Positions 19,263-27,242 of a stretch of DNA of 47,609 nt are shown piece after piece. How positions within the stretch are numbered: position 1 is the stretch's first letter; every line of letters starts with the position of its first letter. The notes beneath the pieces were generated by a model. The model had not been told where the DNA came from and did not search any database. It saw only the letters and a program-made list of their open reading frames with translations. The stretch comes from Desulfobulbaceae bacterium (GTDB taxonomy: Bacteria > Desulfobacterota > Desulfobulbia > Desulfobulbales > Desulfocapsaceae), in the NCBI GenBank assembly GCA_020049575.1, contig JAIFKM010000008.1:1-47609 (forward strand), given 5' to 3'. A program made the position numbers and the translations under genes.

Positions 19263-20186
19263 CTATACCTGAGGCCTGGGCAACAGTCCTGCCCTCTCAA
19301 CAATTTCCTTGACCTTCTCTTCCCAGTCGATGGCCATTATATGAAAACCGGCAACACCCTCAACTTTCTTAAGACGCTCTATAGTTTCAATACAGATGTT
19401 AATTCCCTCTTCGGGTTGTTTTTCCTTGGGTACAGAAGCCATCCGGTCGACGATCTCCTGAGGAACATCCATCCCAGGCACCCTGGTTTTCATATAACGA
19501 GCGGCGCCAAGCGACTTGATCGGTGTGACACCTGCCAGGATATAACATTTCTTGTGAAGACCGCGGGCACAGACCCCCTCCATCCATTTTTCAAATTTGT
19601 CGACATTGAAGATGCACTGGGTCTGAATAAAATCAGCCCCCGCGGCAATCTTCTTTGCCAAGCGCAGAACCCGAAGTTCAAAGGGATCGGCAAAAGGATT
19701 TGCGGCTGCGCCGATGAACATCTTCGGTGCGCCTTTGATCTCCGCCCCACCCTGAAAAATGCCTTCGTCGCGCATCGCCTTGACCATCTGGATGAGTTGA
19801 ATGGAGTCGATGTCATGGACATTCATCGCCATCGGATGGTCGCCGAATTTGGTGTGATCTCCCGACAGACAGAGCATCGTGTCGATGCCCAGCGAGTAAG
19901 CTCCAAGAATATCAGCCTGCATGGCGAGACGGTTACGGTCACGAGTGACCAGCTGGTAAAGCGGGTTCAACCCTTCCTGTTTCAACAGGACAGAGGCTGC
20001 CAAGCTCGACATTCGAACCATCGCCGTCTGGTTGTCGGTAACATTGACCGCATCGACAATTCCATGAAGATACCTGCCCTTCTCCCGCACTTTATCGGGC
20101 TGAGCCCCACGGGGCGGACCACATTCCGACGTCACAGCCAGGTGGCCTGCGGCCAGTACTTTTTCCAATCTGCTATCAGTCTTCAT
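19263..20186 (-). CDS. metF: Methylenetetrahydrofolate reductase (MetF-1)
   Basis: 307 aa; AVTSECGPPRGA, CLSGDHTKFGDHP, GADFIQTQCIFNVDKFEKWM; ATGA overlap with metV. Confidence 0.9.
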   Translation of the reverse strand: MKTDSRLEKVLAAGHLAVTSECGPPRGAQPDKVREKGRYLHGIVDAVNVTDNQTAMVRMSSLAASVLLKQEGLNPLYQLVTRDRNRLAMQADILGAYSLGIDTMLCLSGDHTKFGDHPMAMNVHDIDSIQLIQMVKAMRDEGIFQGGAEIKGAPKMFIGAAANPFADPFELRVLRLAKKIAAGADFIQTQCIFNVDKFEKWMEGVCARGLHKKCYILAGVTPIKSLGAARYMKTRVPGMDVPQEIVDRMASVPKEKQPEEGINICIETIERLKKVEGVAGFHIMAIDWEEKVKEIVERAGLLPRPQV

Positions 20187-20851
20187 TCTGCCAAGTCCTC
20201 TCTTATGATCTTTCTCGGGCCACTGCCTCCACCCGGTCGCCAGTCCTTTGCCGGCATGATTTCGACAAAGCGCTCCTCCTGTCCGAGCTCTTTCAGCCTC
20301 TCCCAGATCAAGGCCCAGGCACAGTCCACATCATCGCCGATCTCGCAATGTCCACCGGTTGAACCGCCGCATGGGCCGTTCATCAATTGCTTAGCGCATC
20401 GGGCAATGGGACAAATTCCGCCGGTCTTGCCGAGCAGGCAGTCACCACATCCCTGACAACGCTCGGCCCAGACGCCCTGCCTTTCGGAAGCACCCATGAA
20501 CTTTGTATTCACGGCCGGGAAGACCGGTTTTCCTTTGAAGCGACGGGCCAGTTCCTGAACCCCGCAACCGCAGGCCATGGACATGATGGCATCGACGCCG
20601 TCGATCATCGGGACAAGTTCCTCGACATATTCCGGGTCGCACTGGCGTTCCAGGGTATGCTCGCGTATTTCGATAGTGGAACCGCTCTTGAGCAGGGCCA
20701 TGTGCAGGCCGGAAGCGAGAAGCCCGACCTCTTTACGACCGCCAGCGGCGCAAACCGTCACGCATTCGTTGCAACCAAGCAGCAGAATTCGCTTAAAAGG
20801 TCTGACATACTCAATAAGCTCTTCCAAGGGTTTTCGTTCAGCAGTGATCAT
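20183..20851 (-). CDS. metV: Methylenetetrahydrofolate reductase C-terminal/zinc-binding partner (MetV)
   Basis: 222 aa, Cys-rich: LLLGCNECVTVCAAGG, CQGCGDCLLGKTGGICPIARCAKQLMNGPCGGS. Confidence 0.88.
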   Translation of the reverse strand: MITAERKPLEELIEYVRPFKRILLLGCNECVTVCAAGGRKEVGLLASGLHMALLKSGSTIEIREHTLERQCDPEYVEELVPMIDGVDAIMSMACGCGVQELARRFKGKPVFPAVNTKFMGASERQGVWAERCQGCGDCLLGKTGGICPIARCAKQLMNGPCGGSTGGHCEIGDDVDCAWALIWERLKELGQEERFVEIMPAKDWRPGGGSGPRKIIREDLAE

Positions 20852-20873: not shown

Positions 20874-21329
20874 TTATTCCACTACTACGGCACAGGTGTC
20901 GACGTGCTGCCGGCAGATGGCGGCGTGTATCGAACTCGGACCGAGTTTACGGATCTTCTCTGTTATCTCTGTGGCAACCTGGGCAAAACGATACCCCATG
21001 CCGGCGGACATCATGACCATCTCTAACCGTTCTCTCTCAATACCGATTTCATCCATGTATTTCTGAACATAATCCACCATCCGGGCAGCCCGAGTGTTGC
21101 CATTCTTGAAATGGCAGTCACCTTCCAGGCAGCCTGCCACATACACACCATCCGCACCCATTTCAAAAGCCTTGACGATATGCAGAGCATCCACCTTGCT
21201 TGAGCAGGGAACCCGGATGATCTTGACATTGGATGGATAGGTGAGTCTCTGACTCCCAGCCATATCGGCTGCCGTGTACGCGCAGTAATGACAGCAGAAG
21301 GCCACAATGACCGGTTCAAATGTATCCAT
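20874..21329 (-). CDS. mvhD: Hydrogenase iron-sulfur subunit (MvhD/FrhD family)
   Basis: VIVAFCCHYCAYTAADMAG, VPCSSKVD, GCLEGDCHFKNGN; TAATG overlap with hdrA. Confidence 0.9.
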   Translation of the reverse strand: MDTFEPVIVAFCCHYCAYTAADMAGSQRLTYPSNVKIIRVPCSSKVDALHIVKAFEMGADGVYVAGCLEGDCHFKNGNTRAARMVDYVQKYMDEIGIERERLEMVMMSAGMGYRFAQVATEITEKIRKLGPSSIHAAICRQHVDTCAVVVE

Positions 21330-24300
21330 TATGCGATATTCCTTTCAAAGAGTTCTTCCAGTTTGGCGATAATCCGATCATCCTCGAACTGCATAAGTTG
21401 AATGGCCTTGGCCGGACAGGCCGAAGCGCACATACCGCAGCCATGGCATTTTGCCGGATCGATTTCCGAATAGCCGTCGGCGTTGATAAAAGGAATGCCG
21501 AAGGGGCAGGCCCTTACGCAGATCAAACAAGCCGCGCAGAGATCACGGTTCACCTTGGCTGCAGCGGCACCGAGATTGATTGAATCCCTGGCGAGCATAG
21601 TCAGGGCCCGCGAAGCCACGGCCAGGGCTTGACCGACACTCTCCCTGATAGTCTTGGGACCATGCGCTGTGCCCGCTACGAAGAAACCAGGAACCGGCAG
21701 ATCCACCGGCCGCAGCTTGACATGATCCTCGAGAAAGTACCCGTCGCCAGTACGGGGCAGCTTGAAGATTCTTGCCAACTCGTCATTTCCATCCTCATCG
21801 GCAATCAAGCCAGTACTCAGACAAAGACAATCGGCAGTGACAGTGATCTGACGGCCTATGATCGGATCTGTAAAGGTAACATCCACCATTGAGCCGGAAG
21901 CTGCAACCACGGGTGGTTTATCCAAGCTGTAGCGACTGAAGATCACTCCCAATTCACGAGCTTTTTGATAGTATTCTTCCTGGAAGCCATAGGTTCGCAT
22001 ATCCCGAAAAAGGACGAAAATACGTGCTTCCGGGTTGATTTCCTTAATCCGCAAGGCGTTCTTCACGGCATTCTGACAACAGATACGCGAACAATTGGGG
22101 TTGTCAGGAGTACGGGAACCGGCACACTGAATCATCACCACGTTATCCCAGGAACTTACAGTTTCGGGACTTTCTTCAATGAGGTTCTGCAATTCACGCT
22201 GGGTCGATACCGCTTCACATTCATCGAGCAGATAGAGACGGGGACGATTCGGCAGAGCCCCGGTGGCGAGAATAGTAACACCATGCTCGATCTGCCTATA
22301 GAACATCTGTTTGCCGGTCTGCATGCCGGTCTTGAACATGCCCGGCATACCACTGTGGTCGACGATGATGGCACGGGTTATGACCTGAATATTGTCATGT
22401 GATTCGGTCCTGGAAATGAGATCCTTGACAAAAGCCTGGATGTCGTTGCCCTCGAGTGTTCTCCAAAGACCTGCAGCGAAACCGCCGAGACCTGCCGATT
22501 TTTCAACGAGAAAGACTTTCACTCCCTGCTCGGCGAGTTGCAGGGCTGTAGTCATGCCGGTGATGCCGCCACCAACCACTAGGACATTCTTGTTCATCGG
22601 CAGACTGTGATCAGCCAGCGGCTGCGAGCGAACAACACTACCGACCGCCATTTTCAGCAGGTCCTTGGCCTTCTCGGTCGCCTCATCCGGGTGATTGGCA
22701 TGGACCCAGGTAACCTGATCGCGAATATTGGCAATCTCGACAAGATATTTATTAAGTCCTGCCCGGCGAACGACCTCCTGGAATTTAGCCTCGTGAGTAC
22801 GGGGTGAACAGCCGCCGATCACGACCCGGTTAAGTCGCTCTGTCTTGATTGTGTCCTCTATCTGCTGCATCGACTCTCGGCTGCAGCCATGACCCTTCAA
22901 CTCTGCAACGGCAACATGAGGAAGGGTTCCGGCAAATTCTGCCAAAGTTGCCACATCAATCACACCGCCGATATTTTCACCGCAGTCGCAGATAAAAACG
23001 CCCACACGCGGCTCTTCACCAACCAGTAAGGTTTCGAGAGGCAGCGGCGCAATCTCGTACTCAATCTTCTCGGTTATTCCCAGATCTCTGCCTGCCATGC
23101 AGGCGGCAGCACTAGCTTGAACCATAGTCTCCGGAATATCCTTCGGACTCTCTATGACACCGGCGACGTAGACGCCGGGCACCGAGGTGACAACCGGATT
23201 GAATCCGTCGGTTTTCGGGAAACTGGAGGTGTTGAGTTGAAGACCCAGTTTTCCAGCAAGCTCTTTGACATCGTCAGCCACCCGAAAACCTGTCGACAGC
23301 ACTACCATATCAAATTCTTCTGTCAGGTTACGGCCACCCTCCTCGGCACTGTAGGTCAGGCTCAGGTTCTCCTTCCCAGGTTCTCGCAGGATACTGTGCG
23401 GCCGACTGCGGACGAATCGCACACCAAAGTCATTTTTTGCCCGGAGGTAGTAGAGTTCGTAATCCTTGCCCATGGTCCGCATGTCCATGAAGAAGATCGT
23501 CGTCTCTATGTCATCTTGGAATCGCTCCTTAGTGACGATGGCTTCCTTCAAGGCAAACATGCAGCAGGCGCTCGAACAGTATTGACCAGCGCCCTTCTGC
23601 AAGCCACGCGAACCGATACACTGGATCCAGGCGACTTTCTTCGGCTGTTTGCCATTCGAAGGCCGGACAAGCTGCCCCATGGTCGGACCCGAGGCGGAGA
23701 GGATGCGCTCGTATTCAAGACTGGTGACGACGTCGGGCTGGGTTGCATAGCCCAGATAATCCAGGTGGCTCGGATCGAACAGGGCGCCACCCGAAGAAAA
23801 AACGATTGAACCGCAGCTGACCTCGCGTTTTCTGCCCATATCGTCAGGATTGATGGCCCCGGCCGGACAACACTTCATCAAGGCCTCAACATCAGTGCAT
23901 TTGGCCAGATCTATGGAAAATGCCTGGGGTGTGGCCTGGGGATAACGCATACATGTCGGGGCTCGATGATCAAGCCCCGGCGTGAAACGGACGCACTCAG
24001 GGAACTTCTTATGGCAGTCGCCGCAGGCCGTGCATTTATCCAGGTTTATATATCGGGGTGCAGTTTCCAATAAAACGGTAAAATCACCCTTTTCACCCTT
24101 CACATCCTTGACCGTGGTCATGGTCAAAAGTTCGATGAACTCCTGCCGGCTGCCCTCGGAGAGATTTGGCGAGAGGGTGCAAAGATCACAATTGTTGGTT
24201 GGGAAGGTTCTATCAAGCTGGGTCATCAAGCCGCCGATGGCATACGCCTTATCCACCAGGATGACATTTTTTTCGGCTTCGGCCAGATCAAGGGCCGTCC

Positions 24301-24385
24301 GTATGCCACCCATGCCGCCGCCGATTACCAGGACCCTGTTGCTGTGTTGCGATTGTATTGTCTGCATAGCTCTTCTTTTTTGCAC
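21329..24385 (-). CDS. HdrA-like FAD/Fe-S protein, tandem-duplicated (1018 aa)
   Basis: Two FAD-binding halves (VLVIGGGMGGIRTALDLAE; VLVVGGGITGMTTALQLAEQG), two IQC(I/A)GSR motifs, ferredoxin motifs CTACGDC and C-terminal CAACLICVRACP/CHGCGMCASACP. Start may be 24367. Confidence 0.92.
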   Translation of the reverse strand: MQKRRAMQTIQSQHSNRVLVIGGGMGGIRTALDLAEAEKNVILVDKAYAIGGLMTQLDRTFPTNNCDLCTLSPNLSEGSRQEFIELLTMTTVKDVKGEKGDFTVLLETAPRYINLDKCTACGDCHKKFPECVRFTPGLDHRAPTCMRYPQATPQAFSIDLAKCTDVEALMKCCPAGAINPDDMGRKREVSCGSIVFSSGGALFDPSHLDYLGYATQPDVVTSLEYERILSASGPTMGQLVRPSNGKQPKKVAWIQCIGSRGLQKGAGQYCSSACCMFALKEAIVTKERFQDDIETTIFFMDMRTMGKDYELYYLRAKNDFGVRFVRSRPHSILREPGKENLSLTYSAEEGGRNLTEEFDMVVLSTGFRVADDVKELAGKLGLQLNTSSFPKTDGFNPVVTSVPGVYVAGVIESPKDIPETMVQASAAACMAGRDLGITEKIEYEIAPLPLETLLVGEEPRVGVFICDCGENIGGVIDVATLAEFAGTLPHVAVAELKGHGCSRESMQQIEDTIKTERLNRVVIGGCSPRTHEAKFQEVVRRAGLNKYLVEIANIRDQVTWVHANHPDEATEKAKDLLKMAVGSVVRSQPLADHSLPMNKNVLVVGGGITGMTTALQLAEQGVKVFLVEKSAGLGGFAAGLWRTLEGNDIQAFVKDLISRTESHDNIQVITRAIIVDHSGMPGMFKTGMQTGKQMFYRQIEHGVTILATGALPNRPRLYLLDECEAVSTQRELQNLIEESPETVSSWDNVVMIQCAGSRTPDNPNCSRICCQNAVKNALRIKEINPEARIFVLFRDMRTYGFQEEYYQKARELGVIFSRYSLDKPPVVAASGSMVDVTFTDPIIGRQITVTADCLCLSTGLIADEDGNDELARIFKLPRTGDGYFLEDHVKLRPVDLPVPGFFVAGTAHGPKTIRESVGQALAVASRALTMLARDSINLGAAAAKVNRDLCAACLICVRACPFGIPFINADGYSEIDPAKCHGCGMCASACPAKAIQLMQFEDDRIIAKLEELFERNIA

Positions 24386-24451: not shown

Positions 24452-25324
24452 TTAGAGACCTGCAATATCGAGAATAGCCGGCAGCTTGTGCTCCCAGCCA
24501 AGTGTCTGGATGAGCACACCTTGAGTCATGGCCTTCAGGGCCGCAATGGTCTCACCAGCGATCAGGATACCCTCTTGCTCACGATCCGGCGATTTTCTAA
24601 TGCGCCGGATGAGTTCATCAGAGATATGCGCCCCAGGTTCGCTGTTGGCGATATACTGAGCAATTGCCAGTGATTTCAGGAGAAATACGGTGGGAATCAC
24701 AGGAACACCCAGTTCCTTGACCTTTGCAAGAAAGGAGGTGAAATGCTGGAGATCAAAAACCGGTGGCGTGATAATGAATCGAGCACCGGCTGCTACCTTC
24801 TCGCGGGCGACAGAAAGTTCTGCAGCCAGCGCGGCATCATCCGCATAGGGAGCAATACTGCAACCGGTGATGAAACTCGGCTCACCATCAAGATCGAATC
24901 CAGCGAGATCCTTGCCTTTCTGCAGCTGACCGATGGCCTTTATAAGGCCAATTTCATCAAGGTCATAGACTGGTTTGGCATCGCTGTGATCACCCTGGCT
25001 CATGTCTTCGCTATGCACCACAATCAGGTTCTGGATGCCAAGAACATGGGCCGCCAGAATATCTCCCTGGATGGCCATGCGGTTGCGATCTCGACAGTAA
25101 ACATGCATGATCGTCTCAACGCCCTGTTGCTGCATAAGCACCCCACCAGCCATGGCACTCATGCGCATGATACCGTTGTCCATATCAGGAACGACAACCG
25201 CATCGACCCGGCCCTTGATCCGGCGGGCGTCAGTTACCAGCCTCGATATATTCACCCCTTTCGGAGTATGCATTTCGGCCAGTACCACAAATTCGTTTGA
25301 CTGCAATCTCTTCTGGAAACTCAT
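24452..25324 (-). CDS. Methylenetetrahydrofolate reductase family protein (MetF-2, divergent)
   Basis: 290 aa, alignable by eye with MetF-1 (MRMSAMAGGVLMQQQG..., CRDRNRMAIQGDILAAHVLGIQN). Confidence 0.85.
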   Translation of the reverse strand: MSFQKRLQSNEFVVLAEMHTPKGVNISRLVTDARRIKGRVDAVVVPDMDNGIMRMSAMAGGVLMQQQGVETIMHVYCRDRNRMAIQGDILAAHVLGIQNLIVVHSEDMSQGDHSDAKPVYDLDEIGLIKAIGQLQKGKDLAGFDLDGEPSFITGCSIAPYADDAALAAELSVAREKVAAGARFIITPPVFDLQHFTSFLAKVKELGVPVIPTVFLLKSLAIAQYIANSEPGAHISDELIRRIRKSPDREQEGILIAGETIAALKAMTQGVLIQTLGWEHKLPAILDIAGL

Positions 25325-25392: not shown

Positions 25393-26712
25393 TTACAGGG
25401 CTGTTTCGGGATGAAAAACGTTTAATTCTTTCAGATCGTCTCCCAGATAAGCCCGCTCGTTAGGACCGAGGATGCCAAGTGAGAGGCAGATCAATGTCCA
25501 GATATGCACGGTATTAAATGTTCCGCCAAAATGATGGCCTATATCGTGGACCTGGGCATGACAGTTGTGACAGCCGGTGATGCAGTAATTCGCACCTGTC
25601 GATACTATCTGGTCAAACTTTATTCTGCCGTATGCCCGGCGTTCTTCGGTATATCCCGACTGAAGAAATCCGCCGCCGCCACCGCAGCAATAATTGTTTG
25701 ATTTGTTCGGTGTCATTTCAATGATATTTTCCTTGCCGACTACCGATTCCACCACAAATCGGAGATCATCTGCCACCGCATCGCCATAACTCTTGCGGAC
25801 AATCTGGCAGGGATCCTGAATAGTGAAGGTGACTCCTAAATCCTTGTTCCAATCGGAATTTACCTTCAGGCGACCTTCCCGGATCCATTTGGCATAATAT
25901 TGATAAATTGAGGCAACTTCAAAATTGTGTTCGATGTTAAATTTTTTCAGCCCGGCCCGGACTGAGAAAGTGATGTGTCCTCATTCAGTGTTGAGGAAGA
26001 CCTTGGTCCCGAGCTCGTCGGCCTGCTTTGCCGAGACCCGTGTGACATGTTCCCAGCTGTCATTATCGGCAAGGAACATGCAATAGTTCTCGGCCGCCCA
26101 GCCTTTGCTGCCATAGGTCCAGTCGACCCCGGCAAGATGGAGGATTTTCCACAGGGGGACCAATTCATCCGGCTCAGTGACCGGCTCACGTGAATTCTGG
26201 TTGAGGAAGAAATGAGCTCCCTGCTTATCAATCGGCGCGACCATATCTTTGAATTCAGGCTGGGATTCCTGATATTCTGCCAGGACATCCTCGACGACAA
26301 AGATAAAATCGTCGGGGGCCGTGCCCATGGCGCTGTTGGAATCATTACGCAGGGCCATGTCGCAGGAATTGCGAATACCGCTGGGCCGTTTGTCCCTTGG
26401 CCAGGTAGCCCTGGTATTGTATACCAGTTGGGGAATATCGATTTTCATTGGGCAAACATAAATGCAGCGTTGACACATGGTGCACATCCAGACCCAGGGA
26501 GTGGTTTTCACCTCTTCGTCCAGGCCCATCGCACACATCCGCAGGAATTTACGTGGATCCATATCTGCCATCCCCGTTGCCGGGCAACCGGAGACACAAG
26601 CGCCGCAGGTCAAACACAAATTGAGATTCCCCCCTTCAGGGATAATCTCCTTGACCATATCAATGTATGAACTTTCCCTTTTTCCTTTTATCGCAATGCT
26701 ACTTTCCGGCAT
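25393..26712 (-). CDS. HdrC/HdrB-like (Fe-S)-binding protein, probable selenoprotein with Sec at codon 244 (in-frame TGA 25983..25981)
   Basis: One frame joins ORF 26712..25981 (CLTCGACVSGCP, CTMCQRCIYVCP) with ORF 25776..25393 (NNYCCGGGGG, CITGCHNCH). The 67 codons between them read GHITFSVRAGLKKFNIEHNFEVASIYQYYAKWIREGRLKVNSDWNKDLGVTFTIQDPCQIVRKSYGDAVA with no further stop. Confidence 0.87.
25947..25965 (-). promoter_or_regulatory. Candidate bacterial SECIS hairpin
   Basis: Minus-strand RNA UCAGUCC-GGGCC-GGGCUGA: 7-bp stem including one U-G, apical loop starting 22 nt after the UGA; possible extension UUU/AAA past a C-A mismatch. Confidence 0.6.
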
Positions 26713-26800: not shown

Positions 26801-27049
26801 TCACACACCTCGCTTACGCACTCTCACCTTGTAGAAATCGTGTCTGATATCCTCACTGTCATCTGCCAGGATATCATACGAAGCCTCCGGTAATACCTTC
26901 AGCAGATCTTTTCGGGTATCCGGATCCGATCCCCGTATCTCCAAGACCTGCAGCGGCTTCATGCGGTCGAAGATCTCTGTCATCTTCAGGAGCGAGATCG
27001 AGGAAAAGGTATTTCTAAAATCCAATACTATGTCAGCTTCTAATGCCAA
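26801..27049 (-). CDS. TusA-like (SirA/YedF family fold) protein lacking the active-site Cys
   Basis: TTG start at 27049 after GGAGGAG; LEADIVLDFRNTFSSISLLKMTEIFDRMKPLQVLEIRGSDPDTRKDLLKVLPEASYDILADDSE... aligns with TusA LDxRGLxCPxPLLK; ORF-track start 27112 judged too early. Confidence 0.62.
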   Translation of the reverse strand: MALEADIVLDFRNTFSSISLLKMTEIFDRMKPLQVLEIRGSDPDTRKDLLKVLPEASYDILADDSEDIRHDFYKVRVRKRGV

Positions 27050-27087
27050 TTTATCTGTACTCCTCCGTAATAGTAACTGCAAACATA

Positions 27088-27105
27088 AAGCAACAATCAG
27101 GCCAT
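27088..27105 (-). promoter_or_regulatory. Candidate sigma54 (-24/-12) promoter of the hdr/met array
   Basis: Minus strand ATGGCCTGATTGTTGCTT; GG-N10-GC; predicted 5'UTR about 30 nt to the RBS/TTG start. Confidence 0.7.
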
Positions 27106-27242
27106 TGTGCACAGACTGTATTTTTATAAATTGAGAAAGAACTCTTTAGCATTCATTCCCCTCTGTTAGAGGCGATACGGCGAAAAACTGGATTATTGTA
27201 AAAGGACCCAAAGATGAGTAGAGTGGAGCCATACGTGCTAAG

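Follow-up and report, generated by a model that had tools for sequence, protein, structure and literature searches.

The 47,609-nucleotide stretch of DNA analysed here (contig JAIFKM010000008.1 of a Desulfobulbaceae bacterium, assembly GCA_020049575.1; referred to below as the window) carries an hdrCB-type gene (26712-25393, minus strand) with a single in-frame UGA. If this codon is read through, the gene encodes an HdrC-HdrB fusion of 439 residues, resembling the Fe-S oxidoreductases designated 'HdrD' or GlpC. The locus thus raises the question whether the UGA ends the protein or specifies an amino acid, and which signal would decide this. We consider it highly probable that an RNA hairpin directly 3' of the UGA is a bacterial selenocysteine insertion sequence (SECIS), which would direct selenocysteine (Sec) to residue 244 of a probable HdrCB subunit of a methylenetetrahydrofolate (methylene-THF) reductase complex.

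The UGA (25983-25981, minus strand) lies in the motif LNTE-U-GH, and a spacer of 15 nt (GGACACAUCACUUUC, 25980-25966), equal in length in the aligned UGA homologues, separates it from the hairpin. The whole hairpin spans 25965-25947 on the same strand, inside the coding region, and consists of a 5' arm UCAGUCC (25965-25959), an apical part GGGCC (25958-25954) and a 3' arm GGGCUGA (25953-25947) followed by AAAAAAU; both arms are identified by sequence, fold and covariation. The original prediction had described these letters, correctly quoted, as a 7-bp stem closing a GGGCC loop. The letters stand, but the element is better represented by 8 bp and a G-G-C triloop (25957-25955), because 25958 and 25954 pair with each other and covary. 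This 8-bp structure with its 3-nt loop is also what RNAfold returns for the window sequence (-11.4 kcal/mol), with one wobble pair, U25961-G25951, that is U-A in most relatives. A covariance model of the element scores 60 bits for the window hairpin and at most 13 bits for every other match in the window. No matches were obtained with Rfam at gathering thresholds over the whole window, so that no Rfam family describes the element at that setting. An intrinsic terminator could be ruled out, as the letters after the stem are A rather than U on the coding strand, and the opposite strand continues with GAAAG.

Homologues were gathered from the family, the phylum and named genomes, and of the 219 resulting rows 193 have UGA at this site and 26 have a Cys codon (UGC or UGU). 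The orthologue of Desulfoprunum benzoelyticum DSM 28570 shows 88% identity. All six inner pairs of the stem are formed in 140 of the 143 distinct UGA sequences, compared to none of the 26 distinct Cys sequences; the stem is likewise uninterrupted in 140/143. The eighth pair, 25958-25954 (pair 23-27), is formed in 141/143, variously as GC, UA, GU, AU or UG, and the loop G at 25957 is invariant (143/143). In a set of 22 diverse sequences three of the seven pairs have changed on both sides, while 95.5% of the cells pair. The covariation score of this set is 0.392, versus 0.232 (standard deviation 0.027) after shuffling and 0.04-0.10 when the 3' arm is slid out of register. A structure-blind consensus fold recovers the same stem together with pair 23-27, where both sides are changed in eight sequences, bringing the pairs with two-sided changes to four. 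The hairpin had been proposed from the window alone, with RNA folding and a comparison of UGA orthologues as suggested checks, and with the lack of a conserved hairpin in other UGA orthologues as a refuting outcome. The comparison instead supports it: the hairpin is conserved with compensatory changes among the UGA homologues and absent from those with Cys.

Pairs 19-31 (GC/AU) and 20-30 (UA/CG) have changed on both sides, in each case through synonymous codons on the 3' side (CTG/TTG for Leu, GGA/GGG for Gly). Accordingly, codons on the two arms go together: GTC occurs with GGA CTG (n=107) or, by wobble, with GGG CTG (n=5), ACC with GGG TTG (n=26) and ATC with GGA TTG (n=3), with just two single exceptions overall. 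Similarly, codon 252 predicts the Ala codon 253 in each of 82 rows (CGG with GCC or GCT, CTG with GCA, CAG with GCT). On a tree that leaves out the hairpin-pair columns, at least 4 state changes were counted at 19-31, at least 5 at 20-30 and at least 26 at 23-27, and the pair changes therefore do not reflect one inherited event. Taken together, the conservation and covariation in the comparative data are far beyond chance.

Several observations weigh against interpreting the hairpin as a SECIS. The fold of the single sequence is modest (z -1.68), since 16 of 200 shuffled sequences fold equally well. Of the 1924 UGAs of the window, 88 (4.6%) are followed by a 7-bp hairpin of some kind whose first two loop bases include a G; the exact register is found at only two of them, the element itself included, in a chance estimate that is based on the window sequence only. 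Formal sign tests on independent pairs, of which there are few, do not clearly reach 0.05. In addition, the metagenome-assembled genome (MAG) of the host, which is 75.6% complete, yielded neither selA nor selB, and the bulged U17 that is essential in Escherichia coli has no counterpart in the window stem.

This last point bears on the kind of SECIS involved. The fdhF SECIS of E. coli is characterized by a bulged U17 in the upper stem and by G23 and U24 in the loop (PMC8659212), and bacterial SECIS elements more generally have a small apical loop with a conserved guanosine (PMC1088965). The window element shares with fdhF its location in the coding region straight after the UGA and a G in a small apical loop, but differs by its 8-bp stem, its 3-nt loop and the lack of a bulged U. 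Its key loop G falls 4 nt later, at position 27 instead of 23 when the U of UGA is taken as 1, and the second loop base is G where fdhF has U. The proposed likeness to fdhF-type elements is thus upheld as a general resemblance and not in these details, and by its features the putative SECIS is not of the fdhF type in the strict sense. The accompanying doubt, that a GGGCC loop in place of the GGUCU of fdhF might escape the cognate SelB, is eased by the homologues. The invariant G is followed by G, as in the window, in 112 of the 143 distinct UGA sequences and by U in the other 31, meaning that both loop types occur within one gene family.

In the protein, Pfam domains were identified at residues 30-91 (Fer4, HdrC-like) and 297-388 (CCG, HdrB-like). 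Across a set of 33 diverse homologues, neither His246 nor any of the five CCG cysteines (302, 342, 343, 381 and 384) varies. An AlphaFold model (mean predicted local distance difference test score 88) has EtfD and HdrB as its best PDB matches. EtfD is also matched by the sequence profile of the C-terminal half (E = 4.5e-8), with Sec244 aligned to Cys581 and His246 to His583. In EtfD of Mycobacterium smegmatis (PDB 9ojn) Cys581 binds a linear cluster and His583 a noncubane cluster (PMC13083937). Since His246, two residues further on, aligns with the ligand His583, the selenol of Sec244 probably sits beside a noncubane [4Fe-4S] cluster. EtfD differs from the predicted HdrCB in being membrane-bound, in containing no Sec and in having a linear [3Fe-4S] cluster; for the other Cys ligands of that cluster, HdrCB shows no evident counterparts. 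The U-G-H motif corresponds to C-G-H in the Cys homologues, two of which (L222 and L223) have C-A-H. An in-frame TAG in some paralogues, considered as possible pyrrolysine, turned out in those checked to be an ordinary stop at residue 433 that the alignment overran.

The listed selenoprotein families include an Fe-S oxidoreductase (GlpC) that has Sec in a UGH motif (PMC13188914), and in Deltaproteobacteria the Sec-containing GlpC-type family has been placed in operons that also carry hdrA and frh genes (PMC1794560). The window protein has in common with the latter the UGH motif, the occurrence in Deltaproteobacteria and the existence of Cys homologues, and its Fer4 and CCG build fits the GlpC name. 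By these features it is a predicted member of the known Sec-containing Fe-S oxidoreductase (GlpC/HdrD) family, although its gene neighbours are metF2, hdrA, mvhD, metV and metF, with no hydrogenase. HdrD4 of Desulfobacterium autotrophicum, also listed as a selenoprotein (PMC2702500), is by its description likewise an HdrC-HdrB fusion in a sulfate reducer.

As the UGA comes after the Fer4 half and ahead of the complete CCG domain, termination there would leave an HdrC-like piece, and the codon could accordingly serve mainly as a stop that is switched to read-through depending on selenium. A degree of termination is to be expected for any Sec gene. The 193 UGA homologues, however, share one reading frame that is conserved at the protein level downstream of the UGA, and we regard a codon that mainly terminates as very unlikely.

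The same hairpin could also serve a different decoding, in which the UGA is read as Cys by a tRNA-Sec-like selC* tRNA-Cys with its own SelB; to this we attach a similarly small probability. Such systems, with a UCA anticodon, have been reported in some Desulfobacterales and Syntrophobacterales (PMC7609411), orders related to the host, and the host MAG contains a tRNA-Cys of 93 nt with a tRNA-Sec-like score (58.4 bits). This tRNA, however, has a GCA anticodon, and the MAG encodes a separate tRNA-Sec with the UCA anticodon as well as a Sec-type selD that itself has an in-frame TGA. The recognition of the protein family as selenoproteins also argues against Cys. The 93-nt tRNA (C120:1610-1701), which resembles the described selC* tRNA-Cys, comes after a Cys-form HdrCB paralogue at a distance of about 90 nt. 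The HdrCB paralogue of genome G056 is followed by a similar tRNA, and 14 other sampled paralogue flanks have none.

Apart from these genes, the machinery for Sec is only partly visible in the host, whose MAG is fragmented (3.06 Mb). The best selB match is elongation factor Tu and not SelB. Each of the four congeneric genomes has both selA and selB; their absence from the host MAG is taken as assembly incompleteness. A second UGA gene of the host, TmcB/HmcF-like (C168:9557-9601), has the hairpin GCAACCC-GGTCC-GGGTTGA, a compensated version of the window element. Ahead of its Fer4 domain, the frame of this second gene resembles a helix-turn-helix (MerR-like).

The nucleotide conservation might also be due to constraint on the protein (SVRAGLKKF) alone, with an incidental hairpin, as the region does encode conserved residues adjoining the probable cluster-binding motif. 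Among 127 close UGA relatives, however, it is the synonymous sites that are conserved. Codons 250-257 hold the most synonymously constrained seven-codon windows of the gene (excess 0.85, mean 0.10), with GTC in 127/127, CGG in 107/107 and CTG in 125/126. The choice between synonymous codons follows the pairing partner, and Cys homologues of related protein sequence lack the pairing, so that this explanation is extremely improbable. Synonymous sites outside the stem are unusually conserved in the UGA relatives as well, at CTC 240, at CAC 246 and in the A-rich tail past the stem (25946-25938, minus strand; codons 256-258, mostly AAA AAA TTC in relatives). A sequencing error or pseudogene mutation, conceivable in a fragmented MAG, has a practically negligible probability, as 193 homologue rows, complete genomes of isolates among them, share the UGA at this codon.

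The UGA-containing hdrCB gene is the first of an operon on the minus strand, followed by metF2 (24452..25324; Pfam PF02219), a second protein with a methylene-THF reductase domain, hdrA (Cys form, 21329..24385; NCBIfam HdrA2-type match), mvhD (Cys form, 20874..21329; PF02662), metV (20183..20851; PF12225), encoding a methylene-THF reductase C-terminal domain protein, and metF (19263..20186; PF02219). All five are conserved neighbours. In the loci with at least 78% identity metF2 is directly downstream in 31 of 33 and hdrA in the other two, and beyond metF2, where the sequence extends far enough, hdrA, mvhD, metV and metF follow. In many of the more distant loci, hdrA-mvhD lies upstream of hdrCB and metV-metF downstream. 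The product of metF2, located between hdrCB and hdrA in addition to metF, gives cross-matches in relatives that are about one-third identical. Upstream of hdrCB, a small open reading frame (26801-27112) whose position is kept in many relatives shows weak TusA-like similarity (Pfam, 21.1 bits, below cut-off).

With metF, metV, hdrA, hdrB/C and mvhD in one cluster, the operon has the composition of the MetVF-HdrABC-MvhD gene set, and is by this gene content a predicted Moorella-type methylene-THF reductase gene set. It shares with the MetVF-HdrABC-MvhD enzyme the presence of the whole set together, with an hdrC-hdrB fusion like that of DscP3. HdrABC has also been found beside metF in Seep-SRB1g (PMC10553843). 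Compared with the known sets, as far as the accessible parts of their descriptions go, the window operon differs by a predicted Sec in HdrCB, by a second metF and by a host in a sulfate-reducer lineage. Neither this kind of signal nor the protein family is new. Little seems to have been written on a SECIS linked to a set of methylene-folate reductase genes, and a full-text literature search, with subscription papers mostly outside its reach, found no report of Sec in a MetVF-associated HdrCB.

We propose that the hdrCB mRNA would present the 8-bp stem and a G-K-N triloop, the five-base apical part starting 22 nt after the UGA, to SelB carrying Sec-tRNA(Sec). Binding of SelB to the hairpin would then lead to selenocysteine, and not to termination, at residue 244, and the resulting HdrCB would probably serve in a methylene-THF reductase complex together with MetF, MetV, HdrA and MvhD. 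More tentatively, and with somewhat less than even confidence, we suggest that sulfate-reducing Desulfobulbales and their relatives use a selenoprotein bifurcating methylene-THF reductase, in which the HdrCB selenol lies beside or ligates the noncubane [4Fe-4S] cluster, and that the hairpin represents a SECIS subtype of its own, with 8 bp, a G-K-N triloop and no bulged U.

On the proposed reading, an apparently broken gene would be an intact selenoprotein gene, and the comparison provides a well-supported consensus for a putative SECIS without the bulge of fdhF. Genome pipelines that stop at UGA would split hdrCB in two, and would thereby hide a probable subunit of the methyl branch of the Wood-Ljungdahl pathway. 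For the sulfate reducers themselves, the finding points to selenium at the core of carbon-fixing electron bifurcation.
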